Assembly (NCBI GenBank): GCA_021796315.1
Contig: JAJYOH010000028.1
Span: 1-22,009, forward strand
From: Chloroflexota bacterium
GTDB taxonomy: Bacteria; Chloroflexota; Anaerolineae; Anaerolineales; Villigracilaceae
Length of the DNA: 22,009 nucleotides
Reading direction: 5' to 3'
A program made the translations under genes and the position numbers. The number at the start of each line of letters is the position of its first letter. The first letter of the stretch is position 1. Shown here piece after piece: positions 3,099 to 22,009 of this stretch. The notes beneath the pieces are model-generated. The model did not search any database. It saw only the letters and a list, made by a program, of their open reading frames with translations, and had not been told where the DNA came from.

Positions 3099-3686
3099 TT
3101 ACCGCCCTGTCAAATCTGTCAGATATTCAATCGTCTTCTCAAATAAGAGGGTTTTGGCGGACTGCCCCGTGCCCGTGGTCTGACCTGACGCGGCGGCGGT
3201 AGCCTGGGCAGCGGCTTTTTCTTCATCCGTTTTGCCGCTTCCCGAACCAGGGACTTTGGTCACGCCAGGAATGGGAGTCGGAAGTACAACCCCGTACTCG
3301 GCGTAAAAAACGCTCAAGTCGGCGTTGGTCAACTGCATGGCGGCGATGGCTTGCAGTTGTTCGGAGGTCAACGCCTCCACAATTTGATCCTGTACGGCGG
3401 TCAGCTCTTCGCTGGCGGTGGTGGTGTCGCCGCTGAGGGCGATGACCGCCTGCCAGAGCGGGATGAGGGTCTTCGCCTGTTCGGGTGTTACGGTGTTGGG
3501 TGTGCCGTCCAGTTTCATGATGCCAAAGGCGAGTTGATTGCGCAGGCTGGCGGCGTCGGTGTACTCGGTGGTGAGATATTCGCCCGCGATGGAGGTGGGC
3601 GCGGTGGATGTTTCAACCGCGGGGGTGCAGGCGAAGAGTAGAAAAGCCGAGATTACAAGAAGAGTGAGAGAGAGGAAAGTTTTCAT
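3099..3686 (-). CDS. secreted lipoprotein, paralog of the upstream lipoprotein
   Basis: A 195-aa protein with a type II signal peptide: positively charged start, hydrophobic core and a lipobox LLFAC with the lipidated cysteine at residue 20. A Ser/Thr-rich tether follows, then a helical body with two 'TPEQA...LxPLWQA' and 'LTSEQLQAI' blocks shared with the neighbour at 3733. The end is Gly/Ser/Ala-rich followed by a short helix (KTIEYL). The start has AAGGAAT nine bases upstream. It is the last gene of the MacAB-like row, so a role as a surface-anchored partner or substrate of that exporter is possible but not shown. Confidence 0.8.
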   Translation of the reverse strand: MKTFLSLTLLVISAFLLFACTPAVETSTAPTSIAGEYLTTEYTDAASLRNQLAFGIMKLDGTPNTVTPEQAKTLIPLWQAVIALSGDTTTASEELTAVQDQIVEALTSEQLQAIAAMQLTNADLSVFYAEYGVVLPTPIPGVTKVPGSGSGKTDEEKAAAQATAAASGQTTGTGQSAKTLLFEKTIEYLTDLTGR

Positions 3687-3732: not shown

Positions 3733-4317
3733 TTATTGGGTCAATCCTTCCAGATAACTGATCAACGCATTGAGCAGGGCGGAGGACGCGCCGCTGCCGC
3801 CGCTTCCGCTTGTGACGCCTTCTGCGGCTTGTTTGGTGGCGCGCGCTTCGGGCGACATGCCGCTTCCCTGACCTGAGCCTGGCTGCCCCGATCCGCTTCC
3901 CAGGGTCACGCCGTTGGCGGATGCCCAGATTTGGATGTCGGCGGAGACGAGTTTCATGTCGCGGATGGCGGTCAGTTGTTCGGGGGTGAACGCGGCTTCG
4001 ATCTGTGTGAGCAGGGCATTGACTTCAGCCTGGGCGCTGTTACCTGTGCGAGTCATGTTCTGAAGCGCCTGCCAAAGTGGGAGCATGATTTGAGCCTGTT
4101 CGCTTGTGATGGGCGTATTCGTCTCCGCCAGTTTCAACGAACCGAGAGTCAGTTGCAGGCGGGCGTTGAGCGCATTTTCGTAACTGACGTTCAGGTTGGG
4201 GCTGACGTACGCGTCAGAGTTGGACGAGGTTGTCGAAGCGGGAGCCGCTGTCCCTGAGCAGGAGGCGAGGAGCAGGGCGAAGATGATGGTCAAGATGGGG
4301 ATGAAAATCCGTTTCAT
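3733..4317 (-). CDS. secreted lipoprotein, paralog of the downstream lipoprotein
   Basis: A 194-aa protein with a lipobox LLASC (cysteine at residue 20), a Ser/Thr tether, a helical body with the same 'SEQAQIMLPLWQAL' and 'FTPEQLTAI' pattern as the neighbour, a Gly/Ser-rich stretch and a final helix ending YLEGLTQ. The body alternates predicted helices reminiscent of EF/Spy-like 'LTPEQ' proteins, but no family is claimed. AAGGATAT precedes the ATG. It lies 83 bp after the permease gene, across a heptamer repeat array, and 46 bp before its paralog, consistent with tandem duplication. Confidence 0.8.
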   Translation of the reverse strand: MKRIFIPILTIIFALLLASCSGTAAPASTTSSNSDAYVSPNLNVSYENALNARLQLTLGSLKLAETNTPITSEQAQIMLPLWQALQNMTRTGNSAQAEVNALLTQIEAAFTPEQLTAIRDMKLVSADIQIWASANGVTLGSGSGQPGSGQGSGMSPEARATKQAAEGVTSGSGGSGASSALLNALISYLEGLTQ

Positions 4318-4339: not shown

Positions 4340-4402
4340 ACTGATGACTGATTACTGATTACTGATGACTGATTACTGATCACTGGTTACTGATCACTGG
4401 TT
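4340..4402. repeat. nine-copy heptanucleotide tandem repeat (ACTGATT type)
   Basis: Nine consecutive 7-base units, ACTGATG, ACTGATT (x2), ACTGATG, ACTGATT, ACTGATC, ACTGGTT, ACTGATC and ACTGGTT, fill the gap between the permease stop codon (TTA at 4401-4403, which the last unit enters) and the lipoprotein ribosome-binding site. Units differ mainly at position 7. Confidence 0.9.
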
Positions 4403-5612
4403 ACTCACGCCGCAACGCTTCAATTGGATCGAGTTTTGCCGCGCGGGTGGCGGGGTAATACCCAAAGAAGATGCCGACAGCCGCGGCCGCGCCAAACGCC
4501 AGCGGGATGGAGAGTGGGACGATTTCAGTGCGCATGGTGCCGAGGGTGCCAAATAGATACGAGCCACCGACGCCAACCAGAACACCGACCAAGCCTCCGA
4601 CCAAACTGAGGATGACGGCTTCGATCAGGAACTGGGTCAGCACGTTGGAGGGGCGCGCGCCTAACGCCATCCGCAGACCGATCTCGCGCGTGCGTTCGGT
4701 GACGGAGACCAGCATGATGTTCATGATGCCGATGCCGCCGACGAGGAGGGAAACGCCTGCCACCCATGCCAGCAGGTCACGGAAGGCGGCGGTGGTGGCT
4801 TCCTGTGTAGCGATAATGTCCTGCTGGGTCTGCACGGTGAAGTCGGGTTTGGCCGCGTCAACGTCGTGACGTTCCGCGAGCAGCGCGGTGGTCTGCGCGA
4901 TGACGCTGGGAATTTGTTCCTGGCTTTCGGCTTTGAGATAGATGGTGCGGACGGCTTCGGTGCGGAGGGGCGAGGTGGTCATGTATTTTTGGAAGACCAG
5001 ATTGAGGGGCAGGTAGATGCGCCCGTCGTAGTCCACATCCGAGACGACGCCTTTCGCTTCCATCACGCCGATGACAGTCAGTTTGGTCGAGCCGACGGTG
5101 ATGGTCTGCCCGATGGCGCTCTCTGCGCCGAACAAGTCGGTGGCGATGCCCGAACCGAGTACAACCAGCTTTGCCTTGCGGTCGTCTTCATCGGCGGTGA
5201 AGTAACGTCCCTCGGCGACTGCGTATTCGCGCACGTCGGGGAAATCGGAGGTTGTGCCGATGAGGGGAATGGCTTCCAGGGTTGTGCCGCCAAAGCGGAT
5301 GTTTTGCGGCGCGGGGGACTGCTCGGCGGAAATGCCCGTGATGCCGACCACCTGCTCGGCGATGGCGTAGGCGTCATCGAGCAGTAACGTGCGCGACGCG
5401 CCAGGGATGCCGCGCATGGGCGAGACGATGACCAGGTTGGCGCCCAGGGCGTTGATCTCCTCGGCAATCGAGGCTTCCGCGCCCGCGCTGACCGCCAGCA
5501 TGACGATGACCGAAGCCACACCGATGATGACGCCGAGCGTGGTGAGAAACGAACGGACTTTGTTGAGCATCAAGCCTTCCCAGGCTGTGCGGAAAATTTT
5601 TCTAAGTTTCAT
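4401..5612 (-). CDS. MacB-like ABC transporter permease
   Basis: A 403-aa inner-membrane permease of the MacB/FtsX type. An N-terminal helix (about residues 18-43) follows the typical 'NKVRSFLTTLGVIIGVASVI' opening. A large extracytoplasmic MacB core domain spans about 45-270, and a C-terminal FtsX domain with three helices spans about 280-395, including the conserved 'TERTREIGLRMALGA' loop. The end, 'ATRAAKLDPIEALRRE', is standard for the family. It lacks its own ATPase domain, which is encoded just upstream at 5781. In such mechanotransmission transporters the permease does not carry substrate through the membrane but drives the periplasmic partner. No strong ribosome-binding site is visible. 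Confidence 0.93.
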   Translation of the reverse strand: MKLRKIFRTAWEGLMLNKVRSFLTTLGVIIGVASVIVMLAVSAGAEASIAEEINALGANLVIVSPMRGIPGASRTLLLDDAYAIAEQVVGITGISAEQSPAPQNIRFGGTTLEAIPLIGTTSDFPDVREYAVAEGRYFTADEDDRKAKLVVLGSGIATDLFGAESAIGQTITVGSTKLTVIGVMEAKGVVSDVDYDGRIYLPLNLVFQKYMTTSPLRTEAVRTIYLKAESQEQIPSVIAQTTALLAERHDVDAAKPDFTVQTQQDIIATQEATTAAFRDLLAWVAGVSLLVGGIGIMNIMLVSVTERTREIGLRMALGARPSNVLTQFLIEAVILSLVGGLVGVLVGVGGSYLFGTLGTMRTEIVPLSIPLAFGAAAAVGIFFGYYPATRAAKLDPIEALRRE

Positions 5613-5641
5613 AATGACATCTTTATGAGTTCACTAAAAAA

Positions 5642-5770
5642 AACCTCTAACCACAAAGGACACTAAGTACACAAAGGAATTCTGAAGGGCGTAACTCAAA
5701 ATTTGAAATTCGTCGCAGGACACTTTCAAAAACTTTGTGACCTTTGTGTCCTTCGTGGTTAAAAAGGTTT
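5642..5770. repeat. long imperfect inverted repeat, MITE- or REP-like
   Basis: The arms at 5648-5676 and 5733-5761 are reverse complements with three or four mismatches (core TAACCACRAAGGACAC), and the match extends outward through AACCT/AGGTT. The loop is about 56 bases. It occupies nearly the whole gap between the permease and ATPase genes, so the transcript must read through it. No coding capacity is visible. Confidence 0.75.
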
Positions 5771-5780
5771 GGCAGTGAAA

Positions 5781-6503
5781 TCAGTTATGTAATCCCGCGC
5801 AATGATTCTTGCCGTCGAGGCCGTCGGACAGGATTCTTCCGTCCTTGACGCAGATGACGCGTTCTGCATGTGCGGCGATATCCGCCTCGTGCGTGACCAT
5901 GACAATTGTTGCGCCGCTTTTATGAAGATCATGCAGGATGTCCATGATCTCCACGCTGGAATTCGAGTCGAGGTTGCCTGTCGGTTCGTCCGCCAGGATG
6001 AGCGGCGGTTTGTTGACCAGGGCGCGCGCGATGGCGACGCGTTGCTGCTGTCCGCCGGATAACTGATTGGGACGGTGATGCAGACGCTTCTCCAGCCCGA
6101 CCGAGGTCAGGGAGGCGACCGCGCGCGCATTCGCCTCTTCTTCGCTTGTATCCTCCGAGTTGTAAAGCATGGGAAGCATCACGTTGGATAACGCGCTCAA
6201 ACGCGGCAATAAGTTGAAGGACTGAAAGATAAAGCCGAGTTTCTCGTTCCGAATTTCAGCCAGTTCATTTTTGCTCATCTGGCTCACGTCACGCCCGTCG
6301 AGCATGTATTTGCCTTCCGTAGGGCGGTCGAGACAGCCGATGATGTTCATCAGGGTAGACTTGCCCGAACCCGAATGTCCCATGATGGCGACAAACTCGC
6401 CGCGCTCCACCTGCGCATCCACGCCAGCCAGCGCGCGGACTTCCGCATCGCCTTCGCCATAGACTTTGGTCATACCTGTAATTTCGATTAGGTTATTGTT
6501 CAT
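5781..6503 (-). CDS. ABC transporter ATP-binding protein (LolD/MacB type)
   Basis: A 240-aa ATPase with Walker [10 protein letters not shown] at residues 42-50, Q-loop Gln at 94, signature LSGGQ at 148-152, Walker B LILADE at 168-173 and a switch His near 204 (VMVTHEAD). The 'PTGNLDS' after Walker B is typical of the LolD/MacB/FtsE group. It powers the permease encoded downstream at 4401 and pairs with the membrane-fusion protein encoded upstream at 6597. AAGGATAT precedes the ATG. The C-terminus extends slightly past the usual end with a short His/Cys tail. Confidence 0.94.
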
Positions 6504-6519
6504 TGGAATATCCTTTTGC

Positions 6520-6592
6520 CCTCATCCCCAACCCTTCTCCCAAGGGGAGAAGGGAGTACCCTCTCCCTCTGGGAGAGGGTTAGGGTGAGGGA
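6520..6592. repeat. compound palindromic extragenic repeat
   Basis: Two hairpins sit side by side (CCTTCTCCC/GGGAGAAGG and CCCTCTCCC/GGGAGAGGG), and the outer ends (CCCTCATCCCCAACCC and GGGTTAGGGTGAGGG) also pair. It fills the gap between the membrane-fusion protein and ATPase genes. Sequences of this form are scattered through many bacterial genomes, so it is read as a REP-like element. Confidence 0.8.
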
Positions 6593-6596
6593 AACG

Positions 6597-7940
6597 CTAC
6601 TTCGTTTCCACCGTTCCCGTGCTGACGACATCGCCGACCTTGAGTCCGCTCAGGATTTCGGCGTTGGCGAAGTCGCGCAGACCCACTTCGACAGGCGTCA
6701 TTTTCAATTGTCCGTCGGGTTGGACGACAAAGACCGCGAAGGATCCAGGCGAGAGTTTGCGCAGGGCTTGAACAGGAATGATCAGTGTATCGCGTGCTTC
6801 CGCCGCGATCACTTCGGCTTCCACGGTCATGCCAGAGAGGATCGCGAACGGTATTTCATCGGGCAGGGATGCCCACACCACGACCACAGGCGTGCCATCC
6901 ACAGTTTGCAGGGCAGGCTCGACTAGGACGATTTCACCTGTCACGGTTTCATCGGGATAGGCGTCGAAGGTGAATATCACCGCGTTCCCCGCCGCGGCTT
7001 TACTGACGTCGGTCTCGTCGAGATAGAATCGAACGAGCAAATGATCGGTCGTTAAAATTGTCATCACGGGCGAAGCGCCTACTGACTGACCCTCCGACAC
7101 GTTCAACGCAATCACCGTGCCGTCGAAGGGCGCGACGAGTTGGGAATTTTCAACCGCAAGACGAGTCTGCTCCAGTTTCGCCGTCTCTGCGCCCAGCGCG
7201 AGGATCGGCTCAGCCAGGGCATCTGGTCCCGCCTTGATAATGTCCAGCGCGGCTTTCGCATCCTGAAGCGCAACTTTGGCATATTCCAGGTTGGTGTGAG
7301 CCAGGGCGATATCGGAGTCATCCACGTACACGCCCTCTGCATCAATCAGATAATCAATGTGCAGATGCAGAAAGTAATCCCGTTTGAGACGCGCCTGGTC
7401 TGCAACTTTTTGCGCCTCGGTTTTCTGATCCGCGGTTGCGTTGGGGCTGGCATTGAGCGCCGCCAGGGTATCTTCCGCCTGTTTCAACTGCTCTTCCCAG
7501 TAGTACGCGTCGGAGCCAATGACATACTTCAGATTGTTGATTGCATCGTCCAATGCTTTCTGGGCGTCGATGACAGTTAGTTCTGCCTGCGCCAATCCCT
7601 GCGCCGAAAATAGCGCCTGGAAATCTGCCTCGGCTTGAAGGTTGTCCTCCAGCCGCGCCAATACCTGACCCGCCGCAACGGGATCCCCGCTTCTGACATT
7701 CAACTCAGCCACCACGCCTGCCGAACGAAAACCCAGGTCCACCTGCGCGGCGGGGATGACATTCCCAGCCCCGCTGGCGGTAATCACCAAATCGCCCGTG
7801 CGGACCTTGGCGGTCTGCAATTCGGGTGTCGCGCTTGCTTCCGCCTGGGGCGTCTGGGCGAAATACCACGCGCCGCCAATGATCGCTACAAACACAATAC
7901 CCGTAATGAAAAGATTGGATCGTTTCTTGAGGAAATTCAT
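6597..7940 (-). CDS. MacA/HlyD-like membrane-fusion (periplasmic adaptor) protein
   Basis: A 447-aa adaptor with one N-terminal membrane anchor (about residues 10-28). The first half of a lipoyl-like hairpin (about 45-95, 'RSGDPVAAGQVLARLED') is followed by a long, charged coiled-coil hairpin (about 100-255) and the second lipoyl half (about 265-300, 'LVAPFDGTVIALNVSEGQSV'). A beta-barrel and a membrane-proximal domain run to the C-terminus. AGGAGT precedes the start. With the ATPase and permease downstream it forms a complete MacAB-type set, but no TolC-like outer-membrane channel is present, as expected in a lineage without a typical outer membrane (inference). Confidence 0.92.
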   Translation of the reverse strand: MNFLKKRSNLFITGIVFVAIIGGAWYFAQTPQAEASATPELQTAKVRTGDLVITASGAGNVIPAAQVDLGFRSAGVVAELNVRSGDPVAAGQVLARLEDNLQAEADFQALFSAQGLAQAELTVIDAQKALDDAINNLKYVIGSDAYYWEEQLKQAEDTLAALNASPNATADQKTEAQKVADQARLKRDYFLHLHIDYLIDAEGVYVDDSDIALAHTNLEYAKVALQDAKAALDIIKAGPDALAEPILALGAETAKLEQTRLAVENSQLVAPFDGTVIALNVSEGQSVGASPVMTILTTDHLLVRFYLDETDVSKAAAGNAVIFTFDAYPDETVTGEIVLVEPALQTVDGTPVVVVWASLPDEIPFAILSGMTVEAEVIAAEARDTLIIPVQALRKLSPGSFAVFVVQPDGQLKMTPVEVGLRDFANAEILSGLKVGDVVSTGTVETK

Positions 7941-8034: not shown

Positions 8035-8412
8035 TCATTTTCCCCGTTTTATTCGCGCCTGGAAAAACATCAAGGTCAGAATGATCAGCCAGGCGGTGAT
8101 CCGAACCGTCATATCCTCCAGGCTGTGAGCCGAAACGATACCGCGATAAGCGGTCAGCAGAATGAGCATGATGCTGGAATGCGCGACAAAGGTCGCGATG
8201 GCGGCGGGCAGGGCGAGTCTGTTATTTTTCCAAATGAGGATGGCGGTGAGGAAAACGGTCAATATGCCGACAGTGTAGTTGTAGAGTAACAGCCAGTTGA
8301 TGACGTAGTAATCCGTTTCCTGTCCCAGCAGAACCAATCCGCCCGCGACGACCGCGATGCCGCCGATGAGGGAGGCAAGGGCAGATGCAATTTTATTCAG
8401 GGTAGTGTTCAT
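8035..8412 (-). CDS. four-helix membrane protein, paralog of the neighbour
   Basis: A 125-aa protein with four hydrophobic segments (about residues 10-30, 40-60, 68-88, 100-117) and a basic tail. It shares its start (MNTTLNK.AS.LA), length and middle motif (YYVINWLLLYNYTVGILT) with the gene at 8477. No known family was recognised. It lies 94 bp before the membrane-fusion gene and is probably co-transcribed. A decayed copy of its 3' end sits at 2680-2800. The ribosome-binding site is weak. Confidence 0.78.
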   Translation of the reverse strand: MNTTLNKIASALASLIGGIAVVAGGLVLLGQETDYYVINWLLLYNYTVGILTVFLTAILIWKNNRLALPAAIATFVAHSSIMLILLTAYRGIVSAHSLEDMTVRITAWLIILTLMFFQARIKRGK

Positions 8413-8476: not shown

Positions 8477-8854
8477 TTACGCCGTTTTGTTCTTTCGCTG
8501 TTGGAAAAACATCAGGGTTAATATGATCGCCCAGACGATCAGTCGAACCGTCATGGCGCGGATGCTGTCTGGCGCGACCACGCCCTGGTATGCTGTTTGC
8601 AAGATGAGCATGACGAAGGCGTGCAGGCTAAACGTCCCAATGGCGATCTTTTTGGCGAGTCCACTGTTGATCCAGATGAGGACGGCGGTGACGAAGAGGG
8701 TCAGGATGCCGACCGTGTAATTGTAAAGCGGAAGCCAGTTGATAACGTAGTAGCCAGGGTCGTCCCCCAGCAGGACCTTCCCGCCTGCAAAGATTGCCAT
8801 GCCGCCGATGATGAAGGCGAGGACAGATGCGAATTTATTGAGAGTAGTGTTCAT
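8477..8854 (-). CDS. four-helix membrane protein, first gene of the exporter row
   Basis: A 125-aa paralog of the gene at 8035 with four hydrophobic segments, the same YYVINWLPLYNYTVGILT block and a basic C-terminus (FFQQRKNK). AAAGGAG precedes the ATG closely. It is the promoter-proximal gene of the row that continues into the MacAB-like genes. The function is unknown; a small membrane accessory to the exporter is one possibility. Confidence 0.8.
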   Translation of the reverse strand: MNTTLNKFASVLAFIIGGMAIFAGGKVLLGDDPGYYVINWLPLYNYTVGILTLFVTAVLIWINSGLAKKIAIGTFSLHAFVMLILQTAYQGVVAPDSIRAMTVRLIVWAIILTLMFFQQRKNKTA

Positions 8855-8968: not shown

Positions 8969-9658
8969 ATGAACAAACCCGAATCCCCGCGCGCCGCAGA
9001 AATTTTGAAAGCCGTCTCCTATTTTTCGGCGCTGGACGATGCCGCGCTGAACCTTGCGGCGCAAACAACCATCCGCCGCGTCTATGAGGCGGGGCAGGTC
9101 ATCCTGATCGAAGGTGAGCCGTGCGCAGGGTTGTACATTGTTGAAAGCGGCTGGTTGAAAGCTGTCAAGATCGGGCTGGACGGGCGCGAACAGGTATTAC
9201 AAACTCTCAAGCCTGGGGATGTGTTCAACGGCATCAGCGTATTCACCGACGTCCCCAACCAGGCAAGCGTATCCGCGCTGGAAACCTCGGTAGTCTGGCT
9301 CGTCCCGCGCCAGGTTCTGTTGAAACTAATGGATGAACACCCCATGTTGGCGCGGCAGGTGGTGAAGGAACTGGCAGGGCGCGTCATGTACCTGGTTCGC
9401 ATGGTGGAGGATTTATCTCTGCGCTCGGTGGAAGCGCGTCTCGCGCGGCTCCTGCTGGAGCAATCCGAAGGCGCCTCGGTGCAACGCCGACGCTGGGCAA
9501 CGCAAGCCGAAATGGCCTCCCGTCTCGGCACCGTGCCGGACGTGGTCAACCGCGCTTTGCGTAAACTGGCGGAGGGGGGCATGATCCAGGTGGAGCGCCA
9601 CCAGATCCAGATTTTGGATAAAGAGGGATTGAAGAGCGTCGCGCAGATGGTGGAATAG
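8969..9658 (+). CDS. Crp/Fnr-family transcriptional regulator
   Basis: A 229-aa regulator with a cyclic-nucleotide-binding-like domain (about residues 15-130, with GEPCAGLYIVESG and LKPGDVFNGISVF), a dimer helix and a winged helix (about 165-225). The helix-turn-helix reads SRLGTVPDVVNRALRKL. The usual Arg-Glu pair is replaced by Pro-Asp, so its DNA site should differ from those of the two regulators near 1268-2622. No iron-sulfur cysteines are seen. It is closer to generic FNR/CRP sensors than to the tandem pair. It diverges from the exporter row and is followed by its own terminator, so it is probably monocistronic. Confidence 0.88.
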   Translation: MNKPESPRAAEILKAVSYFSALDDAALNLAAQTTIRRVYEAGQVILIEGEPCAGLYIVESGWLKAVKIGLDGREQVLQTLKPGDVFNGISVFTDVPNQASVSALETSVVWLVPRQVLLKLMDEHPMLARQVVKELAGRVMYLVRMVEDLSLRSVEARLARLLLEQSEGASVQRRRWATQAEMASRLGTVPDVVNRALRKLAEGGMIQVERHQIQILDKEGLKSVAQMVE

Positions 9659-12045: not shown

Positions 12046-12080
12046 GCCGCGGTTTGAAGAGGATACCAGGAGAACTAACT

Positions 12081-13772
12081 ATGGCTGCATCACCCGATGT
12101 GCTTATCATTGGCGCAGGACCTGCGGGCTTAACCGCAGCGGCAGAAGCAATCCGGCATGGATTATCGGTCCGCATTATTGATCAAAATGAATCGCGTTCG
12201 ATCTATTCGAAGGCTTTGGTTGTTCATTCCCGATCGCTTGAAATTTTTCAGGATATGGGATTTGTTTCCCAGGTTATCAACAGTGGGCAGAAATTTCACG
12301 CACTCAACATATACACAGCAAATAAGAACCTCGCACGGATTGTTTTTCAGGAACTCGATTGGCAGGATGCGGATTTTCCTTATTGGTTGAGCATACCCCA
12401 GAGTGAAACCGAACGCTGCATGGAAGATCATCTCAATGAACTGGGTGGCAGTGTGGAACGAGGAACTGAACTTATCAACCTTGAACAGTTTTCAGATTAT
12501 GTGCGGGTCACGCTAAAACACCAGGCAGATTCGATTGAAACGGTGGATGTGCCCTGGGTTGTTGGATGTGACGGTGCGCGCAGTCTAACACGGAAATTGC
12601 TTGGCCTCGAACTTAAAGGAAAAGCCGATGATAAAGTATTTATCCTGGGTGATGTCAAAATTGACTGGGATCTGCCGGAAGATGAAGGATATAACGTTCT
12701 CTCATCGGATGGGATTGTCTTGATTGTGCCTATGCCTGAAGCGCATCGCTATCGCATCATCTGTCACATGCCGGAACTTTCAATCACAGATCTGCCGAAG
12801 ATTACTCTGGAACTTCTGCAAAGTCTGGTGAACCAACGAACTGCCTTCACGATGCGATTATCTGACTTGACCTGGTCATCAATTTTTTCCAGCAAACACT
12901 TTGTGGTGTCACAGCATCGCCAGGGACGGGTCTTTATGGCTGGTGATGCGGCGCATATCCACAGTCCCGTTGGGGGGCAGGGATTAAACTCTGGTATTCA
13001 GGACGCCTATAATTTGATGTGGAAATTGGCGCTTATGCAGCATGGACAAGCATTGCCCAAATTACTGGATAGTTACACGGTTGAGCGTCATAAAACCGCG
13101 CAAAATCTCATTGCAAAAGTGGGCACGGCTACAAAAATTGTCACGCTGAAAAACCCGCTTGCGCAGAAACTCCGTAATCAGTTGGCTGGCGTTCTACTCA
13201 ACACAGATATGATGCGAAATCGGATGGGACGTGATGTGGCTATGCTGGATATTGAATACGAGAATAGTCCAGTTGTCGCTCAGGATTTGTTCTCACGCAG
13301 TATGGTAGGCCATGTTCTGGGCAGGTTTAAACACAACGAGTACAACTTTCATCAAGGACCATCCGCAGGTATGCGAGCGCCTAATATCGCGCTGCCCACG
13401 GATGGCGCCGCGCTGCCATCCAGCCTGTTCGATTTATATCGTGGAACGCATTACACCTTAATGATCTTTTCTGGTGTAACCGGATCGCCTGCCATGAATA
13501 CTCTGTTGGAAATCGGCGCCGTTATACAAACACAATATCAAGCTTCCATCCAGCCGTATATCGTCACTGTTGAACCGCCGTGTAATTTACACGGCAACAA
13601 GCATATTATTGTTGATGCGGATAAAAGTATTCATAGGCGCCATGCCGCATGGCAACCCTGTTTGTATCTTATCCGGCCAGATAAATATATTGCCTATCGG
13701 AGTCAGATGATTGATCAAAATCGGTTGACAGCATATCTCGACTGCATACTCGTTCGTAACCCCGTACATTAA
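12081..13772 (+). CDS. FAD-dependent aromatic monooxygenase-like flavoprotein
   Basis: A 563-aa class A flavoprotein monooxygenase of the PheA/TfdB (FAD_binding_3) type. The Rossmann FAD motif GAGPAG is at residues 11-16, the 'VVGCDGARS' DG motif near 165, and the 'FMAGDAAHIHSPVGGQG' GD motif near 290, with the following 'NLMWKLAL' helix. The C-terminal ~150 residues match the thioredoxin-like extension seen in phenol hydroxylase relatives. A longer frame starts with TTG at 12054, but ATG 12081 has AGGAG nine bases before it. GC content is visibly lower (about 40-45 % in 12181-12300) than in the flanking genes, hinting at separate origin. The substrate is unknown. Confidence 0.9.
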   Translation: MAASPDVLIIGAGPAGLTAAAEAIRHGLSVRIIDQNESRSIYSKALVVHSRSLEIFQDMGFVSQVINSGQKFHALNIYTANKNLARIVFQELDWQDADFPYWLSIPQSETERCMEDHLNELGGSVERGTELINLEQFSDYVRVTLKHQADSIETVDVPWVVGCDGARSLTRKLLGLELKGKADDKVFILGDVKIDWDLPEDEGYNVLSSDGIVLIVPMPEAHRYRIICHMPELSITDLPKITLELLQSLVNQRTAFTMRLSDLTWSSIFSSKHFVVSQHRQGRVFMAGDAAHIHSPVGGQGLNSGIQDAYNLMWKLALMQHGQALPKLLDSYTVERHKTAQNLIAKVGTATKIVTLKNPLAQKLRNQLAGVLLNTDMMRNRMGRDVAMLDIEYENSPVVAQDLFSRSMVGHVLGRFKHNEYNFHQGPSAGMRAPNIALPTDGAALPSSLFDLYRGTHYTLMIFSGVTGSPAMNTLLEIGAVIQTQYQASIQPYIVTVEPPCNLHGNKHIIVDADKSIHRRHAAWQPCLYLIRPDKYIAYRSQMIDQNRLTAYLDCILVRNPVH

Positions 13773-15187: not shown

Positions 15188-18100
15188 TCATGGGATATTA
15201 TCGTAGCTATTATTGTTCGGGCTTCCAGGGGAGGCGTGCGTCACATTATGACATGTGAGGAAGCAGGAACCCACGCCTGTGGCGGGGTTGTATACCCAGG
15301 CGTCCTGGCTATTGTAACCTGCCGGGAAAGTAACTGCCGCCGAGTTGAAATTGATGAGATGTTGCTGCTCACTGCCGTGTGTATCATGGCATTCATAGCA
15401 TGGCACACCAAAAGAACCCTGGCCGCCTGAATGGAAGGCATGGAAATTGTCTCCATTTCCGGTGCGGAAGCCTGTGTTCGTTGTTGTAGCGGTGCCGCTC
15501 ACGTAGAGAGTATAGTCATGGCACTTGAAGCACAATTCGCCATTTCCCTGGAAGTTGCGGTTATTGGTGCTATCAACCGTTGTATAGTTCATCGTTCCAT
15601 CGAGCAAGTGCAGGCGAGGGGAGCCGTGCGGACCATAACCGTTTGCAGGCTGGTTAGCATTGGTATGACAGTCGGCGCAATACACCATGCTGTTCACTGA
15701 CCAGCCATTCACAAACGCGGCCGCCGGGATGGCAGTATTGCGTCCCTTGGCAATCACTGGATGAAAACTAGTATTGTTCGGATTGAGCTCCTGGGCCATG
15801 TCTCGGCTATCGAGCACTTGCGAGGTATTCGTAGTAGTCAGCTTTGGCAGACCGTTGGCTACATAATTCCAGGCAGCGCCTGTCCAACCCCAGCCATTTG
15901 GCTGATAGGTCGGCAGAGTTGTGAAACTCGAATGGCATTTGAAGCAGACTTGATACTCGCGCTGGGCTTGCGTCTGCCAGGTAAACCCGCTCGGCGCGCC
16001 GGCCCCGGTCCAGGTCGGGTCAACGCCGCTGGCGAGATACATTTCAGGCTGGATCATCGGCGGAAGCGTCGTCCCCGCTGCGGCGTCCCGCGTGGATTTG
16101 TGCGGCTCATGACAGTCCTCGCATTCGATGTGACGATTTGCCCCTGTAAAAAAGGCTGATGTGTTTTGTCCCAACCGGTGAACGCCATTGGTGGCAGCGA
16201 CATCATGTTTGAAAAATTGCGTGGCGGTATTGGTATAACTGGTGAAGGCCGGTTGAACGTTTGTGCCAGTGCCTGCAGTTTTATGGCAGGTGAAGCAGAC
16301 CTGCTCTTCAGGCCAGGTTTGGCGCAGGACAATGCCGCTGGCCGTATGCGAACGGTGACAAGCGGCGCAGTCATCCGAAGTGGCGGTATAGTTCACATGC
16401 GGATCGCTCGCACCGGGAATTGCTGTCGGCGCGCGCGCTGGAAGTGTCGGCGTGGATTGAGGCGGAACCGGCGTGGGCGTGGGCGGTGTATCACTAATGA
16501 TAAGACGGGCCTCATCGAGGTAAATGGTGATGGCTTCAGCGGTCCCTGTGACCTGTGTACCGCGCAGGCGGAAACGCGCGTTGTTAACTTGAGCTACGGT
16601 TGTATAAGTGGTTGAAACATTGTAAGAGAGCGTGGTCAGTATGGATGGTGGTACTGTGCCCGTTTGAAAGCGTGCGATGCGAGTCCACGTGGCGCCATTA
16701 TCGTTTGAAACTTCCAGGTCAATGCGATCATCCGTCCAACCAGTCATGTAAAAACGAATCTCGAATGTGGCGCTGGCGACAGCCGTCAGCGTTGTATCCT
16801 GCACCGCTGTGTAAGTCCAGTTTCCATTATTCCCGAACGTACCGGTTGAACTTGCCGTGGCATTATTGAAGGCAAGATCAATGCTGTTGGCAGGAGTATT
16901 GATCGCATAAGATGATGTCTGGGCCGTGCCCCATAAATTCTGGATGGCCAGCATCCACACACCGCCCGAGTCGGAACCCGGTGTGGGAATAGCCCCGGGC
17001 GTCGGCCAAACGACCGGCGTCATCCCGGCAGGGGTGTATTGCATGGCATCCAAAGCACGCACCAAGCCAAATCCATAATATGGATCCCAACCAGGCCGGC
17101 CCAAGTCGTACGCGGTATCAATCAAAGCGGCGCGCAAATTTGTTGAATCGGCAAATTGAGGTTGTCCGGCCAGTAAAGCCGCCACACCTGAAACTGTAGC
17201 GGACGACATGGATGTGCCGGACATCTGGCTGTAACCGCCGCCCGGATAAGTTGAATAAATATCAATGCCGGGCGCGGACAAGCCGGTAGTGTTGCCGAAA
17301 GTCGAGAAGGGCGCCCACGTCAGGCCATTGTCAACGGCGCTGACGGAGATCACGCCCGGATAAGCGGCAGGATAGCAGGCAACATCCGTGCCGCTGTTGC
17401 CAGCCGCCGCGATCACGATCACGCCGCGCGCAAGCGCGTAATTAACGGCATCTTGAAGCACCTGGCTGTAACCTGTGCCGCCGAAACCCAGGTTGATAAT
17501 TCGCGCGCCTTGATTGGTGGCATAGATGATGGCATCCGCCACTTGCGAGTACGTGCCAAAGCCTTTCGAGTCGAGCGCCTTGATCGGAAGAATGCGCGCG
17601 TTGGGAGCAATGCCGGCAATGCCCACGCCATTATCGGACGCGGCCGCAATGATCCCGGCGACATGTGTGCCATGTCCCTGATCATCATGCACATCATTGT
17701 TTCCAGCCACAAAGTTCCAACCCTGGAAGTCATCCACATAACCATTGCCATCGTCATCAATCCCGTTTGCGCCGTTCGCAATCTCGGCATTATTTTGCCA
17801 GATGTTCGGAGCAAGATCGGGATGTTGTGTATCAACGCCGGTATCGATCACGGCCACGAGTACTTCCTGTGAACTCGCAGCCAGATCCCAGGCCTGTGGC
17901 ACTTGAATACTCGATAAATTATTTTGTTGAAAGAAAGCCGGATCGTTGGGTGTGTAGGCGGCCTTGACCAGATAGTTCAATTCAACCGACTGAACATTTG
18001 GATTGTTCTGCAATTCGGCCAACGTCTTTTGCATATCGCCCGGCGCAACCTGGACGACAAATGTGTTGAGTTCGGGCAAGGATTGATTGGTTTGGATTTG

Positions 18101-20029
18101 TGCCGGGGCGGACACCGAATCTACAATCGCTTCAGCCGACCCCGCGCCGGGTTCCATTTTGACGACGATCTCATCCGCTGTGTGCGGACTCTGAACATCC
18201 GTTGGCAAATTGGTCGGTGTTGCAGATGGGACAGGAGTCTCTGTCAAAGCCGGAGTTGGAGTGGAAGGAGTCTCCGTTGAAACGGAGGTAGTTGGAGAAG
18301 CCTCAGGCGTTGGAGCGGTCGTTGCGGTCGAGTTGACCTCTGTCGAAATTGGCAATGCTTCCGTTGTAATTAAAGTCGGCGTCTCAGATGGAACAGGAGT
18401 CTCTGTCAAAGCCGGAGTTGGAGTGAAAGGAGTCTCCGTTGAAACGGAGGTAGTTGGAGAAGCCTCAGGCGTTGGAGCGGAAGGAGTCGCTGTTGAAACG
18501 GATGTAGTTGGAGAAACATCCAGCGTGGGAGCGCTCGTTGCGGTCGAGCCGCTATCGGTTGGAATGAATGTTACAGTCGGGTTGACATCTGTTGAAACGG
18601 GCAACGTTTCCGTGGTAATTAAAGTCGGTGTCGCGGTGGATGTTTCCAGCAATGCAGTGCCGGTCGCAGTCGGATCGAGTGTCCCGGTTGGAATCTCGGT
18701 TGAGGTCGGAGGCAGGTTGGTGGCCGTCGGCGTGGGAAGCAGTTCAGGCGCACTCACACTGCTGATGTTTTCAACGTAATCCACAGCGTTCTCGCAACCC
18801 GGTTCGAGATTGCTTGAAACATTTTTCCAATTCAGTTTTTTGCCGGCCAGGTGGGTAGCGCCCAAAGCGGAATATAAACAACCCGGCCCGGCATGATAAT
18901 TAACCAGTGTGAAGCGCCACAGGTCTTGATCGCTCACGCCCAAATTGCTGGACAAGCCGGTGGCGTTTTGAATGACTTGCATAACTTGCGAACGATTGGC
19001 AAGGATGGTATCTGCAAAAACCTGGATGCTGTTTTCTGCTTTGGGAATATCCAGGCCGAGTGAGCAGGCCGCACAATCGGCGCGCACCAGGCCGATAACG
19101 GCCCCGCGTAACATCGCCCGCTGGTTGGATGGCAGATTGATATAGGCCCGCCGGCAAGCTTCCTTGCTCAACACGGTCGGGCAAAAGCTATCGTAGAAAT
19201 TACCGTTCCAAACCAGGAGCGCGTCAACACCCTTTTCGTTTAATTGTCCCATGCCATATTCGCCGAAATCCCAGGCATTGTTCTGAGTGACCCTGGGCCA
19301 AAATTGAGTCTCTTGCGCGAACAAACCTTTCAGCAGGTAAGGCGGCACGTTGGTGTTTTGAGAGACGGAAAAAATGATCGGGTCAAAACGATTCTGCCAG
19401 AGATAGACCTGGTAGCGGGCCTTTTCGAGACCGCATTGATTGGCCGCGCCGTTCTCCATCAAACCGCCTGCCGGACATTCGCTGGCATCGGCCACGCCGT
19501 TCGCGATCAGATGACCGGCCAGGAACATCAACGGTTGGTTGGACGCCAGGTCTTCAAACCCGGATGGCGATGAAAGCCATTCAATGGTTTTCGGCGCGGC
19601 TGCCAACGTTGATGTTGCGGTAGATGTCATGGTAGGCGTGGCAGTTGGCGTCACAGATTCAGGCGTCGGTGTTTGCTCTTCGGTGCCGGTCAGGTTCAAG
19701 TAAAGTCCCTGACATGATGAAGCAACTGCATCCGGGCAGGGCGGAGTCTTTTCCCATTGAGCGCGCAGGTCGCCGCCGCAACTGGACTCGATCTCATCCG
19801 CAGTGGGCAAACCAGCATGATCAACTTTGAGTGAGCAAACCACCTCACTGTTTTCCCAGCGCGCCAACTGCCACACGTAAAGTGTCTTTGTTTCAGCAGG
19901 CTGGCGCGCCGCGAGCACACTGGCCGGAGCGGGGATGGTAAAGATAAATGAAAATAGAATCAACGCGAACATAAAGATTCGAGTTGATTTTATTAAGCGA
20001 AACTTATCACGATGAAGCATGGAAATCAT
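15188..20029 (-). CDS. secreted transglycosylase-like / subtilisin / multiheme cytochrome c fusion protein
   Basis: A 1613-aa exported protein. An N-terminal hydrophobic signal or anchor (about residues 18-38) precedes a cysteine-containing region. A lytic-transglycosylase-like domain (about 195-410) has Glu240 in 'FAQETQFWP', then 'GMGQL' and 'NYHAGPG'. A Thr/Pro linker with internal repeats spans about 430-612, followed by a subtilisin propeptide-like part (about 615-690). The S8 protease has Asp729 (DTG), His786 (HGTHVAG), Asn878 and Ser940 (GTSMSS). After a beta-sandwich (about 1035-1190) comes a multiheme domain with CxxCH cysteines at 1221, 1245, 1303, 1362, 1451, 1500 and 1544 and a CX3CH at 1589. 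Start ATG 20029 has GGAGG six bases upstream and overlaps the previous stop; the frame also runs back to 20068. Domain calls are firm for the protease and hemes, good for the transglycosylase. Confidence 0.93.
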   Translation of the reverse strand: MISMLHRDKFRLIKSTRIFMFALILFSFIFTIPAPASVLAARQPAETKTLYVWQLARWENSEVVCSLKVDHAGLPTADEIESSCGGDLRAQWEKTPPCPDAVASSCQGLYLNLTGTEEQTPTPESVTPTATPTMTSTATSTLAAAPKTIEWLSSPSGFEDLASNQPLMFLAGHLIANGVADASECPAGGLMENGAANQCGLEKARYQVYLWQNRFDPIIFSVSQNTNVPPYLLKGLFAQETQFWPRVTQNNAWDFGEYGMGQLNEKGVDALLVWNGNFYDSFCPTVLSKEACRRAYINLPSNQRAMLRGAVIGLVRADCAACSLGLDIPKAENSIQVFADTILANRSQVMQVIQNATGLSSNLGVSDQDLWRFTLVNYHAGPGCLYSALGATHLAGKKLNWKNVSSNLEPGCENAVDYVENISSVSAPELLPTPTATNLPPTSTEIPTGTLDPTATGTALLETSTATPTLITTETLPVSTDVNPTVTFIPTDSGSTATSAPTLDVSPTTSVSTATPSAPTPEASPTTSVSTETPFTPTPALTETPVPSETPTLITTEALPISTEVNSTATTAPTPEASPTTSVSTETPSTPTPALTETPVPSATPTNLPTDVQSPHTADEIVVKMEPGAGSAEAIVDSVSAPAQIQTNQSLPELNTFVVQVAPGDMQKTLAELQNNPNVQSVELNYLVKAAYTPNDPAFFQQNNLSSIQVPQAWDLAASSQEVLVAVIDTGVDTQHPDLAPNIWQNNAEIANGANGIDDDGNGYVDDFQGWNFVAGNNDVHDDQGHGTHVAGIIAAASDNGVGIAGIAPNARILPIKALDSKGFGTYSQVADAIIYATNQGARIINLGFGGTGYSQVLQDAVNYALARGVIVIAAAGNSGTDVACYPAAYPGVISVSAVDNGLTWAPFSTFGNTTGLSAPGIDIYSTYPGGGYSQMSGTSMSSATVSGVAALLAGQPQFADSTNLRAALIDTAYDLGRPGWDPYYGFGLVRALDAMQYTPAGMTPVVWPTPGAIPTPGSDSGGVWMLAIQNLWGTAQTSSYAINTPANSIDLAFNNATASSTGTFGNNGNWTYTAVQDTTLTAVASATFEIRFYMTGWTDDRIDLEVSNDNGATWTRIARFQTGTVPPSILTTLSYNVSTTYTTVAQVNNARFRLRGTQVTGTAEAITIYLDEARLIISDTPPTPTPVPPQSTPTLPARAPTAIPGASDPHVNYTATSDDCAACHRSHTASGIVLRQTWPEEQVCFTCHKTAGTGTNVQPAFTSYTNTATQFFKHDVAATNGVHRLGQNTSAFFTGANRHIECEDCHEPHKSTRDAAAGTTLPPMIQPEMYLASGVDPTWTGAGAPSGFTWQTQAQREYQVCFKCHSSFTTLPTYQPNGWGWTGAAWNYVANGLPKLTTTNTSQVLDSRDMAQELNPNNTSFHPVIAKGRNTAIPAAAFVNGWSVNSMVYCADCHTNANQPANGYGPHGSPRLHLLDGTMNYTTVDSTNNRNFQGNGELCFKCHDYTLYVSGTATTTNTGFRTGNGDNFHAFHSGGQGSFGVPCYECHDTHGSEQQHLINFNSAAVTFPAGYNSQDAWVYNPATGVGSCFLTCHNVTHASPGSPNNNSYDNIP
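18226..18482 (-). repeat. intragenic direct repeats in the Thr/Pro linker
   Basis: About 95 bases at 18226-18320 recur almost unchanged at 18388-18482 (period 162 bases). Partial, more diverged copies continue to about 18640. The period is a multiple of three, so the frame is kept. The repeats encode Thr/Pro/Ser-rich units such as 'TPEASPTTSVSTETP' between the transglycosylase-like and protease domains. Confidence 0.85.
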
Positions 20030-20373
20030 CCACCGCCTCCGTGGACGTTCTGGTGGCAGGCCGTGCAAGGCTGCGGATTCGGGCCGAGAGTCGGATGAGT
20101 CGGCGGGAGGGCCGGATTCGTTGGAGCCATAAAAGTCGAAGTGGCTGTTGCCGGTAAAGAGGAGGCGGGCATTTCAATTCCTGTGGAAACAGGACTCACG
20201 GATAAGGTGGAGCTTTCCGGTTGGAAGGTTGCAGTCGGCCAGGGATGGGCTGTCGAACGGCCGGCCAGTTCCCGGTTCACGATGGACGCGGCCAGCCATC
20301 CTGCCGCAAGCATCAGGATGACAATGGTTGTAATGAGTCCACCTGCAAGCAATCCAAACGGAAGACGTTTCAC
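20026..20373 (-). CDS. membrane-tethered protein with one C-terminal heme c motif
   Basis: A 115-aa protein with one N-terminal hydrophobic anchor (LPFGLLAGGL then ITTIVILMLAAGWLAASI), a Thr/Pro/Ser-rich extracellular tether of about 60 residues and a single CTACH heme-attachment motif about 11 residues before the end (then QNVHGGGG). The GTG at 20373 overlaps the upstream stop (GTGA) and has GAGGAG eleven bases before it; an ATG at 20394 without a ribosome-binding site would add seven residues. Its stop overlaps the start of the large fusion gene. It may dock a heme at the membrane for electron relay to the multiheme partners. It matches no family I recognise. Confidence 0.78.
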   Translation of the reverse strand: MKRLPFGLLAGGLITTIVILMLAAGWLAASIVNRELAGRSTAHPWPTATFQPESSTLSVSPVSTGIEMPASSLPATATSTFMAPTNPALPPTHPTLGPNPQPCTACHQNVHGGGG

Positions 20374-21416
20374 TTCTTGTGGCACTCCTCGCATACGCCG
20401 CGATTATCCAGGCGCAGCAGGGCGCTGTCGTTCGTTGGCGCAACATTGGCCGCCTGCCCGCTGGTCGTTACATTCGAGCCGTGAGCGAAGTGGCAGCTCA
20501 GACAGAAGAGTTGATCGTCAATGCTAGGGCCGTTGCCGGAGGGATCTTCCAATGGCAGGGTTGTCGTCAAAGTTCCCAGCGTGACATTCATGTTATGACG
20601 ATAGCGCGTGACCGGGCCCTTGCCATCTTCGGCGTTGAACGGCATGGCCGAAATATTTTGATGATAGGTGAAATGACAACCGGTACACCAATCGCCAAGT
20701 CCCAGGCGATATTTCGAGTTGGTGTAATTGGCAACGTACCCGGCCTGGTTTGGATTCTGTCCGCCGGTTTCATTGGATGTGACCAACACGTAACCGGGCG
20801 GATCCTCCTGCTGTGTGGTGGGCGGATGAAGACGTTGTTGAAGCACGCGATAATTTCGTCCGCCGTGCGGATCATGGCATGAGGTGCAGGTCAGAGGCAT
20901 GGTCACGTTCTCACCTCGACCCGGATACGTGGGCCACGCATTTGGGCTGATGCCCCACTGAGGCGTGCCGGGCCAAACCAGCCCGGATTCGGAATTATGG
21001 CAACCGGCGCATTCATAAGTGCTGCTCCAGGTTGTGCCGCTTCCCCAGGCGTTGACCTGTGCGCCGCTAATGCTGTGCGTTGAACTGACGGCCGCGCCCT
21101 GATAGTTGATAAATCCGCCGCCCAACAAATTGCCGCCGCCGACTCCTTTATAGATTCCATCCTCCACATTTGTATCCGCGCCTGTGCCTGCGCTGCCATG
21201 ACAAGTGAAGCACAAGGCTGGTACCGCGTTGTGCAACAAGCTCGGAGCAGAGGCGGTGTGGGCGCGATGGCATCCGGCGCAGGCATCGGTCGTAGCGGTG
21301 TAGCCGCCATGAGGTCCGGCGTTGGCGCGTGCAATCATCGTTGGAATAATCAGCAGGACAATAGCAAGGCTGATGAAAAAAATCAATTTGAAGGTGAATA
21401 GCTTTCTTGCTGACAT
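20370..21416 (-). CDS. secreted heptaheme c-type cytochrome
   Basis: A 348-aa exported cytochrome. A signal peptide (about residues 1-33, ending ARANA before GPHGG) is followed by seven CxxCH motifs: CAGCH (46), CFTCH (69), CAGCH, CTSCH, CTGCH, CLSCH and CEECH (342, two residues before the end). Several pairs show the doubled-CXXCH pattern, with extra histidines (HRAHTAS, HDPHGG, HFAHGS) that can serve as distal ligands. The frame runs back to 21509, but ATG 21416 has GAGGAAG directly upstream and a proper signal peptide. Its first heme block (GGYTATTDACAGCHRAHTAS) closely resembles that of the downstream fusion protein. Extracytoplasmic electron transfer is the likely role. Confidence 0.93.
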   Translation of the reverse strand: MSARKLFTFKLIFFISLAIVLLIIPTMIARANAGPHGGYTATTDACAGCHRAHTASAPSLLHNAVPALCFTCHGSAGTGADTNVEDGIYKGVGGGNLLGGGFINYQGAAVSSTHSISGAQVNAWGSGTTWSSTYECAGCHNSESGLVWPGTPQWGISPNAWPTYPGRGENVTMPLTCTSCHDPHGGRNYRVLQQRLHPPTTQQEDPPGYVLVTSNETGGQNPNQAGYVANYTNSKYRLGLGDWCTGCHFTYHQNISAMPFNAEDGKGPVTRYRHNMNVTLGTLTTTLPLEDPSGNGPSIDDQLFCLSCHFAHGSNVTTSGQAANVAPTNDSALLRLDNRGVCEECHKK

Positions 21417-21435
21417 TCTTCCTCGCAATCTAGAT

Positions 21436-21984
21436 TTAATCTTCAGACGGCATTTGGAAAGCAGACAGATTCTTGTCAAGCATTTGGGCCGTTGCGCGAG
21501 CCTGATCAAATTGCTTATTGGTTATTTCAGTATTTAACTTTGTGGATAATGCCTTGAGTTCCTTGACGCGCACCTGTAAATTAACAATCATTTCTGTGGC
21601 CGCATCGTCCAGTTCCGTCAGTTCGTCGCCTTTGCGGAATTTAACGATCTGGGCAAGATCTCCCTGCCCGATTTTTTGCAGGATGCTGCACAACCGATAG
21701 ACCGGGCCGGCAATTCTGTGAGTGAAGAAGATGGCTGCGACCACGCTGGCGATCAATCCAAGAAAATTGACAACGACCAATGACGGAACCAGGATCTCCA
21801 ACATGTTGCGTATCGTCAGGTGTGCCTTGAAGTAAGTTTCGGTCAGATCGCGATTGGCGACAAAGGCAAAGATGCCGCCGGACGCCAATAACAAAATAAG
21901 AAAAATAATTTCGATCCCAGCCAGCAGGCGCGGCTGTGAACTTTTCCAAATGAAGTATTGTTTGCGCGGAAATTGTTTTTTCAT
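21436..21984 (-). CDS. HAMP-domain membrane protein without an output domain
   Basis: A 182-aa protein with two membrane helices (about residues 20-43 and 65-88) and a short external loop between them. A HAMP domain (about 88-140, 'RIAGPVYRLCSILQKIGQGDL' split across its helices, then 'FRKGDELTELDDA') and a charged coiled coil follow. It ends without a kinase, cyclase or chemotaxis signalling domain. AGGAG lies eight bases before the ATG. Only 19 bases separate its stop from the start of the heptaheme cytochrome gene, so they form one operon. HAMP proteins beside multiheme cytochromes are known in metal-reducing bacteria; whether it signals or scaffolds here is not clear. Confidence 0.88.
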   Translation of the reverse strand: MKKQFPRKQYFIWKSSQPRLLAGIEIIFLILLLASGGIFAFVANRDLTETYFKAHLTIRNMLEILVPSLVVVNFLGLIASVVAAIFFTHRIAGPVYRLCSILQKIGQGDLAQIVKFRKGDELTELDDAATEMIVNLQVRVKELKALSTKLNTEITNKQFDQARATAQMLDKNLSAFQMPSED

Positions 21985-22009
21985 TTTATAAACTCCTGAT
22001 GGCAGGATA

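Follow-up and report, generated by a model that had tools for sequence, protein, structure and literature searches.

The window analysed here, 22,009 nucleotides from a Chloroflexota bacterium, carries on its minus strand a single unbroken gene of 1613 codons. Its product joins a lytic-transglycosylase (LT)-fold module, a subtilase of family S8 and an octaheme c-type module in one polypeptide (Table 1). A continuous frame of this length had already been reported, without a strand, in a preliminary description of the locus. The residues named there (E240, GMGQL at 259-263, NYHAGPG at 377-383, D729, H786, N878 and S940) were all found at these places in the numbering from the ATG, as were seven CxxCH motifs, starting at residue 1221, and the single CX3CH. 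A TTG codon 13 codons upstream of the ATG would lengthen the frame to 20068. The GC content is level throughout the frame.

From its N-terminus, the chain consists of a predicted signal peptide, a Cys-containing segment, the LT fold, a Thr/Pro linker, a prodomain, the S8 protease, a jelly roll and the octaheme module. Pfam backs the S8, prodomain and paired CXXCH assignments. In a hydropathy scan, residues 12-42 were the sole stretch of the whole protein above the cut-off, and no hydrophobic anchor or helix was detected at the C-terminus. Within the region coding for the linker, a 54-bp tandem repeat is located at 18417-18533.

Table 1. Features of the LT-S8-octaheme gene, its upstream neighbours and a separate LT paralogue
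Feature	Position	Strand	Remarks
Whole CDS, LT-S8-octaheme protein	15188..20029	-	1613 aa with ATG start at 20029; stop at 15188
Predicted signal peptide	19907..20029	-	residues 1-41; hydrophobic stretch 12-42, then ASVLAA; cleavage site by eye
N-terminal Cys-containing segment	19679..19894	-	residues 46-117; also in separate LT-like proteins
LT-fold module with conserved Cys	18740..19582	-	residues 150-430
Codon of catalytic-type Glu240	19310..19312	-	E in 67/67 fused and 48/48 separate rows
Thr/Pro/Ser/Ala-rich linker	18206..18739	-	residues 431-608; 70% T+P+S+A
Fervidolysin-type N-terminal prodomain	17975..18199	-	residues 611-685; PF22148, E 3.1e-8, profile only
Predicted self-cleavage junction 691/692	17954..17959	-	residue 692 aligns with thermitase chain residue 1; cleavage inferred
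S8 subtilase catalytic module	17036..17956	-	residues 692-998; D729, H786, N878, S940
Jelly-roll beta-sandwich	16478..16951	-	residues 1027-1184; CBM/MAM-like by fold only
Octaheme c-type module	15188..16408	-	residues 1208-1613; 7 CxxCH and CX3CH at 1589
1-heme gene, 122 aa	20026..20394	-	hydrophobic stretch near N-terminus (by eye); CxxCH near C-terminus; 4-bp overlap with the fusion gene
7-heme paired-CXXCH cytochrome	20370..21509	-	upstream gene; probable ATG 21416
Membrane protein (by eye)	21436..22008	-	runs off the window; weakly similar to sensor-kinase membrane regions
Separate LT paralogue, L018 copy	L018:9179-10813		downstream end of ccm cluster

When the LT-fold module alone (residues 145-435) was used as query, 34 proteins including this one were retrieved, and 31 of them also contain S8 and hemes. 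The remaining three are P0017 and P0022, which are labelled 'partial' and stop behind S8, and P0034, which has neither S8 nor hemes. Those relatives that bear a name are Chloroflexota MAGs, mostly Anaerolineae. Because relatives in other genomes share the same design, the fusion is genuine; on this comparison, the architecture is real and not the join artefact that the preliminary description had named as its possible refutation. An error of assembly or gene calling is an extremely improbable origin of the fusion, as the same module order recurs in independent MAGs and in a 90%-identical homologue on a different contig. Compared with P0003, the modules are kept better than the linker, with identities of 91% for LT, 91% for S8 and 89% for the heme region versus 54% for the linker. 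Across the fused relatives, the identity of the LT module to this protein ranges from 91% down to about 42%.

The C-terminal part (residues 1030-1613) matched 123 proteins among the 7996 best candidates, and the best 120 of these were combined with the matches to the LT query in a set of 135 proteins. This set was gathered partly via the LT module and some members without LT may be truncated at the start; it comprises 59 proteins with LT, S8 and hemes, 29 with S8 and hemes, three with LT and hemes, 41 with hemes and neither of the others, two with LT and S8 and no hemes, and one with LT alone. The heme number varies as well: among 88 S8 and heme proteins, eight motifs are found in 65, 16 in twelve, 15 in five, five in four, and seven and four in one each. 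So many module subsets and heme numbers would suit an ordinary domain shuffle, in which large secreted Anaerolineae proteins gather modules and their co-location reflects co-secretion only. This explanation is considered rather unlikely, since more of the 135 proteins have the three-module form than any other, with the proviso on how they were gathered, the fused LT modules mostly cluster together in a tree and the catalytic-type residues are constrained.

A scan of species genomes revealed 41 loci, six with the fusion (one of them cut by a contig end) and 35 without it, the latter mostly genes of about 450-675 aa and two shorter ones. A further LT copy is present in all six fused genomes. In the family to which these genomes belong, with 152 genomes, the LT module was found in at least 144 and the fusion in at least eleven. 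In ten of these, the fusion includes the full S8 and heme parts (G001-G004, G006, G390, G428, G450, G455, where it occurs twice, and G493), while G005 is cut. Among 396 genomes drawn evenly from the class, 39 gave a match, four of them a weak one only (short alignments with E 3e-5 to 8e-4). Two of the matched genomes (G003 and G390) have an open frame of the length of the fusion, and in both it proved to be the fusion. Homologues that always occur as separate proteins had been put forward as a second possible refutation; the LT module does occur separately, yet fused and separate forms exist side by side. In the LT tree of 115 rows, two changes of state suffice to explain fused and separate forms. 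Support for its deepest splits is weak (70), the separate forms are joined by a small group that contains fused and LT-heme members, and the separate copy L056, on a long branch, is placed among the fused ones; therefore, the tree does not establish a single origin of the fusion.

The LT-fold module has a lysozyme-type LT fold, and a fold comparison recovered LTs. With Foldseek, the module had no match at E 0.001 or better, and a comparison of the LT alignment with the sequences of solved structures yielded one unrelated match (E 0.53) and no LT. Against PF01464 (SLT), this protein scored 15.9 bits, under the cut-off of 21.3, and the separate paralogue in L018 scored 21.6 bits; 14 out of 15 relatives matched the profile at E<=1, the best at 1.6e-5. 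The preceding Cys-containing segment is 38% identical to the separate LT of L018 over 69 residues (E 9.6e-17). Glu240, a Ser or Thr at position 241 and Tyr378 were each present in 115 out of 115 aligned rows of fused and separate forms. Glu followed by Ser/Thr, together with the Tyr of the AGPG motif, is characteristic of lytic transglycosylases. Cys is conserved at eight positions of the module. The Gln of GMGQL is replaced by His in 43 out of 64 fused rows and NYHAGPG often reads SYNAGPG; thus, the substrate or the activity of the LT may differ. From MltF and other family-1 LTs (GH23), the module differs by its weak sequence similarity, the additional conserved Cys and the fusion to S8 and hemes. 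The earlier suggestion that the protein could open the wall is upheld in part, namely as far as the LT fold and the conserved catalytic-type Glu reach.

The S8 module matched PF00082 with E 1.7e-59 and contains the Asp/His/Ser triad and the oxyanion Asn. Its closest solved structure is thermitase (E 5.3e-62), with which it has the YTPNDP start in common. Thermitase is a stand-alone secreted protease, unlike the fused S8 module here. In 90 proteins, the triad is kept nearly without exception (Asp in 89 with one gap, His in 90, Ser in 90), and the oxyanion Asn is kept in 67 and replaced in 23. Judged by these alignments, the catalytic-type residues of both the LT (Glu240) and the S8 module (triad) are held by selection. 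Removal of the prodomain is normally required for subtilase activity, and subtilases usually cut at such a junction. Most of the 61 LT and S8 proteins have a junction of prodomain end and PNDP-like start, and a loose EPNY-type pattern was found there in 52 of them. Self-processing had been proposed before and gains support from the recognisable prodomain ahead of S8 and from the junction, which aligns with the start of mature thermitase at its residue 1. Thus, the protease probably frees itself by self-cutting, and its activation should detach the LT-bearing half from the half with protease and cytochrome. Since LT and cytochrome would end up on different sides of the likely cut, the mature form may comprise more than one protein.

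The heme region was matched by the paired CXXCH profile PF09699 with E 1.6e-14. The CX3CH motif is invariant in 40 out of 40 rows of alignment A3 and missing in some members with five and 15 hemes. The structure prediction of the octaheme region was unusable, with most blocks at a pLDDT of about 30-60. Against solved-structure sequences, this protein gave no OmcZ entry at E<=1, a result with which kinship is compatible. One weak match, 7tfs_A ('Cytochrome c', E 0.014, 35 columns), presumably a cytochrome from a Geobacter filament, was left out of account since the other seven out of eight matches were antibody light chains and hence noise. Those of P0099-P0117 that lack S8 and LT have 20 hemes, are kin to the octaheme module and contain PF19408; two of them are named Bacteroidales/Bacteroidota, which suggests spread between phyla.

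The same chain could also be read as an uncut protein, in which the LT fold and the jelly roll anchor the cytochrome in the cell wall or in the matrix, with S8 either degrading protein outside the cell or serving as a structural domain only. The LT fold of known enzymes binds glycan chains, the beta-sandwich resembles carbohydrate-binding modules, the long Thr/Pro linker would be suitable as a wall-spanning tether and the protein is without a hydrophobic C-terminal anchor, all of which would suit such a role. This possibility is nevertheless an unlikely one: the S8 triad is intact and preceded by a prodomain of the kind that is normally removed for activity, and a pure anchor would not need the Glu240 that is present in every row.

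Upstream of the fusion and on its strand, the window contains three further genes, for a 1-heme protein, a 7-heme cytochrome and a membrane protein. Counterparts of the membrane-protein gene occur in L001, L035 and L106; all three upstream genes are kept in L001 and L106, and the 7-heme and 1-heme genes in L002. For comparison, twelve fused loci (L001, L002, L019, L025, L026, L035 and L104-L109) were evaluated by Pfam or by BLAST against L001 and L025 proteins, and heme genes by motif count. A 6-heme gene was found in 12/12, a TPR gene in 11/12, an NHL gene in 10/12, a NapC-like octaheme gene in 9/12, and a 10-heme and a cytochrome b gene in 8/12 each, with absences that partly reflect the ends of the examined stretches, as in L107, which ends after one 6-heme gene. 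In L002, 9-heme, iron-sulfur and NrfD genes follow downstream. Judged from this gene content, the fusion sits in a conserved multiheme gene cluster, and its make-up is as would be expected for a route of electrons from the membrane to the outside. Surface presentation of hemes, as formerly proposed, is in keeping with the signal peptide and with this cluster of multiheme genes.

Several other observations were made in the rest of the window, whose contig is listed with a length of 31,109 bp. Two adjacent 125-aa proteins (8035-8412 and 8477-8854) are 63% identical over 123 residues and represent a tandem duplication. Two adjacent genes that appear lipoprotein-like by eye (3099-3686 and 3733-4317) are 36% identical over 139 residues and are followed by a MacB-type ABC exporter with an HlyD-like partner (4401-7940). 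An intergenic heptamer tandem repeat of ACTGATT, with 9.4 copies, is located at 4340-4405. Three Crp-type regulators are encoded within 10 kb (1238-1948, 1945-2622 and 8969-9658), two of which overlap by 4 bp. An FAD monooxygenase-like gene (12054-13772) lies in a stretch of lower GC content (0.48 versus about 0.55).

Apart from the fusion, the LT module exists as a separate, unnamed paralogue family. With the L018 copy as query, 2608 matches were obtained among 8000 scored candidates; among the best 120 of these, no Pfam domain was found and the named ones are 'hypothetical protein'. The separate paralogue has about 540 aa and, by eye, a signal-peptide-like start. In L018, it is preceded by ccmE, ccmF, ccmH, a thioredoxin-like gene, an ABC ATPase, ccmB and a ccmC-like gene, as assigned by Pfam. 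The neighbourhood was compared throughout the 152-genome family, using 139 listed non-fusion LT places in 134 genomes and 147 listed ccmE places in 144 genomes. In all 88 genomes that list both on one contig, ccmE lies 8.5-10.1 kb upstream of the separate LT on the same strand. For plus-strand LT copies with more than 11.5 kb of contig before them, ccmE was seen in 52 out of 54 genomes, the exceptions being G405 and G427. In the loci of the even class sample, the ccmC-like gene is at most 400 bp away from the separate LT in 17 out of 28 copies. Going by gene order, the separate LT paralogue is the end of a cytochrome c maturation (ccm) cluster in that genome family. In another clade, it adjoins polA and not ccm (15 loci by BLAST, two confirmed by Pfam), so the ccm link is lineage-bound. 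The polA-adjacent clade was also the reason why a role of the LT as a housekeeping gene was weighed, and it is kept as a caveat.

This neighbourhood raises the question of whether the LT-like module could be an accessory of cytochrome c maturation or heme delivery with a lysozyme fold, of which the fusion would hold the cytochrome's private copy. The position of the separate paralogue downstream of the ccm genes, its short distance to the ccmC-like gene and the eight conserved Cys positions would agree with this, as would the case of ANME archaea, in which a giant cytochrome comes with a CcmF2 of its own according to the portion of PMC9012536 available. Such an accessory role is judged to be quite unlikely, given that Glu with Ser/Thr and the AGPG Tyr are conserved as in lytic transglycosylases, that polA instead of ccm stands beside the gene in one clade and that the module is missing from the 29 S8 and heme relatives. 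Moreover, CcmE was found in at least 145 out of 152 genomes of the family regardless; as it is near-universal, co-occurrence is uninformative and the neighbourhood is the only link between LT and ccm.

Taken as a whole, the fusion is best read as a secreted zymogen-like polyprotein, the terminal exported part of a cluster for extracellular electron transfer. A probability of about one half is assigned to this interpretation, which is drawn from sequence comparisons. Counting against it are the low SLT similarity, the substitutions in the LT motifs and of the oxyanion Asn, and the relatives that lack LT or S8. The protein would be exported via its signal peptide and its octaheme part loaded with heme. 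After export, S8 would cut itself off the prodomain at about A691/Y692, giving rise to two fragments. The first, consisting of LT, Thr/Pro linker and prodomain, would act on or bind peptidoglycan and thereby make or hold a passage, while the second, consisting of S8, jelly roll and octaheme module, would remain outside and carry electrons. The S8 unit may trim the cytochrome or its neighbours too, as the separate OzpA does for OmcZ in Geobacter. After such a cut, the LT half would resemble the separate LT protein plus a prodomain, and the S8-cytochrome half would resemble the 29 relatives in which LT was not detected. A more specific version is put forward tentatively and is doubtful: that internal subtilisin self-cleavage frees a wall-opening enzyme from an octaheme surface cytochrome, and that the separate paralogue founds a family of wall enzymes in ccm clusters.

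Parts of this arrangement are known from other systems. In the accessible sections of PMC9473688 and PMC11208441, OmcZ of Geobacter sulfurreducens is described as an exported octaheme cytochrome that is matured by the subtilisin-like OzpA, encoded by a neighbouring gene of the same operon. The pairing of an octaheme exported cytochrome with a subtilisin-like protease is thus similar to the fusion, as are the beta-sandwich (Ig) domains on the OmcZ precursor (PMC9473688, PMC11208441). It differs in that the protease is a separate protein there and that these sections mention no LT module, whereas the protease is fused in cis here and LT is placed ahead of it. MHC-A/B of ANME are giant surface multiheme proteins with non-heme modules that are thought to conduct electrons across the outer layer, and MHC-B has a 'peptidase M6-like' N-terminal region and is adjoined by its own CcmF2, according to the available portion of PMC9012536. 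They are archaeal, and S8 and LT are unmentioned in that portion of the paper (PMC9012536); conversely, neither an S-layer nor an M6 domain was found by Pfam in the 1613-aa protein.

Closer in taxonomy are the large multiheme cytochromes of Anaerolineales, which were reported with similar size and variable heme number (PMC7399161, in part). They share the bacterial group and the size with the fusion, a likeness by description in the parts of that paper available, and a term search found the words peptidase, protease, fusion and fused absent from its main text. That study did not detect in Anaerolineales the porin-cytochrome route that Gram-negative cells use (PMC7399161). On its bioanodes, the Anaerolineales were mostly planktonic (PMC7399161), and this habit counts against the electron-export reading. 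Large modular surface cytochromes and a protease-matured octaheme cytochrome are therefore already known. The preliminary description had called the three-module polypeptide undescribed; it is real and conserved, and no description of an LT-S8-multiheme protein was found in the open-access PMC literature searched, which was covered mostly by titles and the starts of abstracts. Within that literature, the three-module arrangement in cis, its conservation and the ccm-linked LT family can be considered as new.

How large, heme-loaded cytochromes pass the wall and are placed outside in bacteria with one membrane is, in our judgement, poorly understood. With a wall-enzyme fold, a putatively self-activating protease and a terminal cytochrome in one conserved protein, this question becomes testable in a single molecule, and the large unnamed LT-like family at the ends of ccm clusters offers a second entry point. 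Under the more specific and doubtful version, the cytochrome would bring along its own tool for the passage through the wall of a single-membrane cell as well as the protease that frees it. The pairing of subtilisin and octaheme cytochrome, in trans in Geobacter and in cis in the fusion, would, if the proposed reading is true, suggest proteolytic maturation as a shared principle of extracellular cytochromes.
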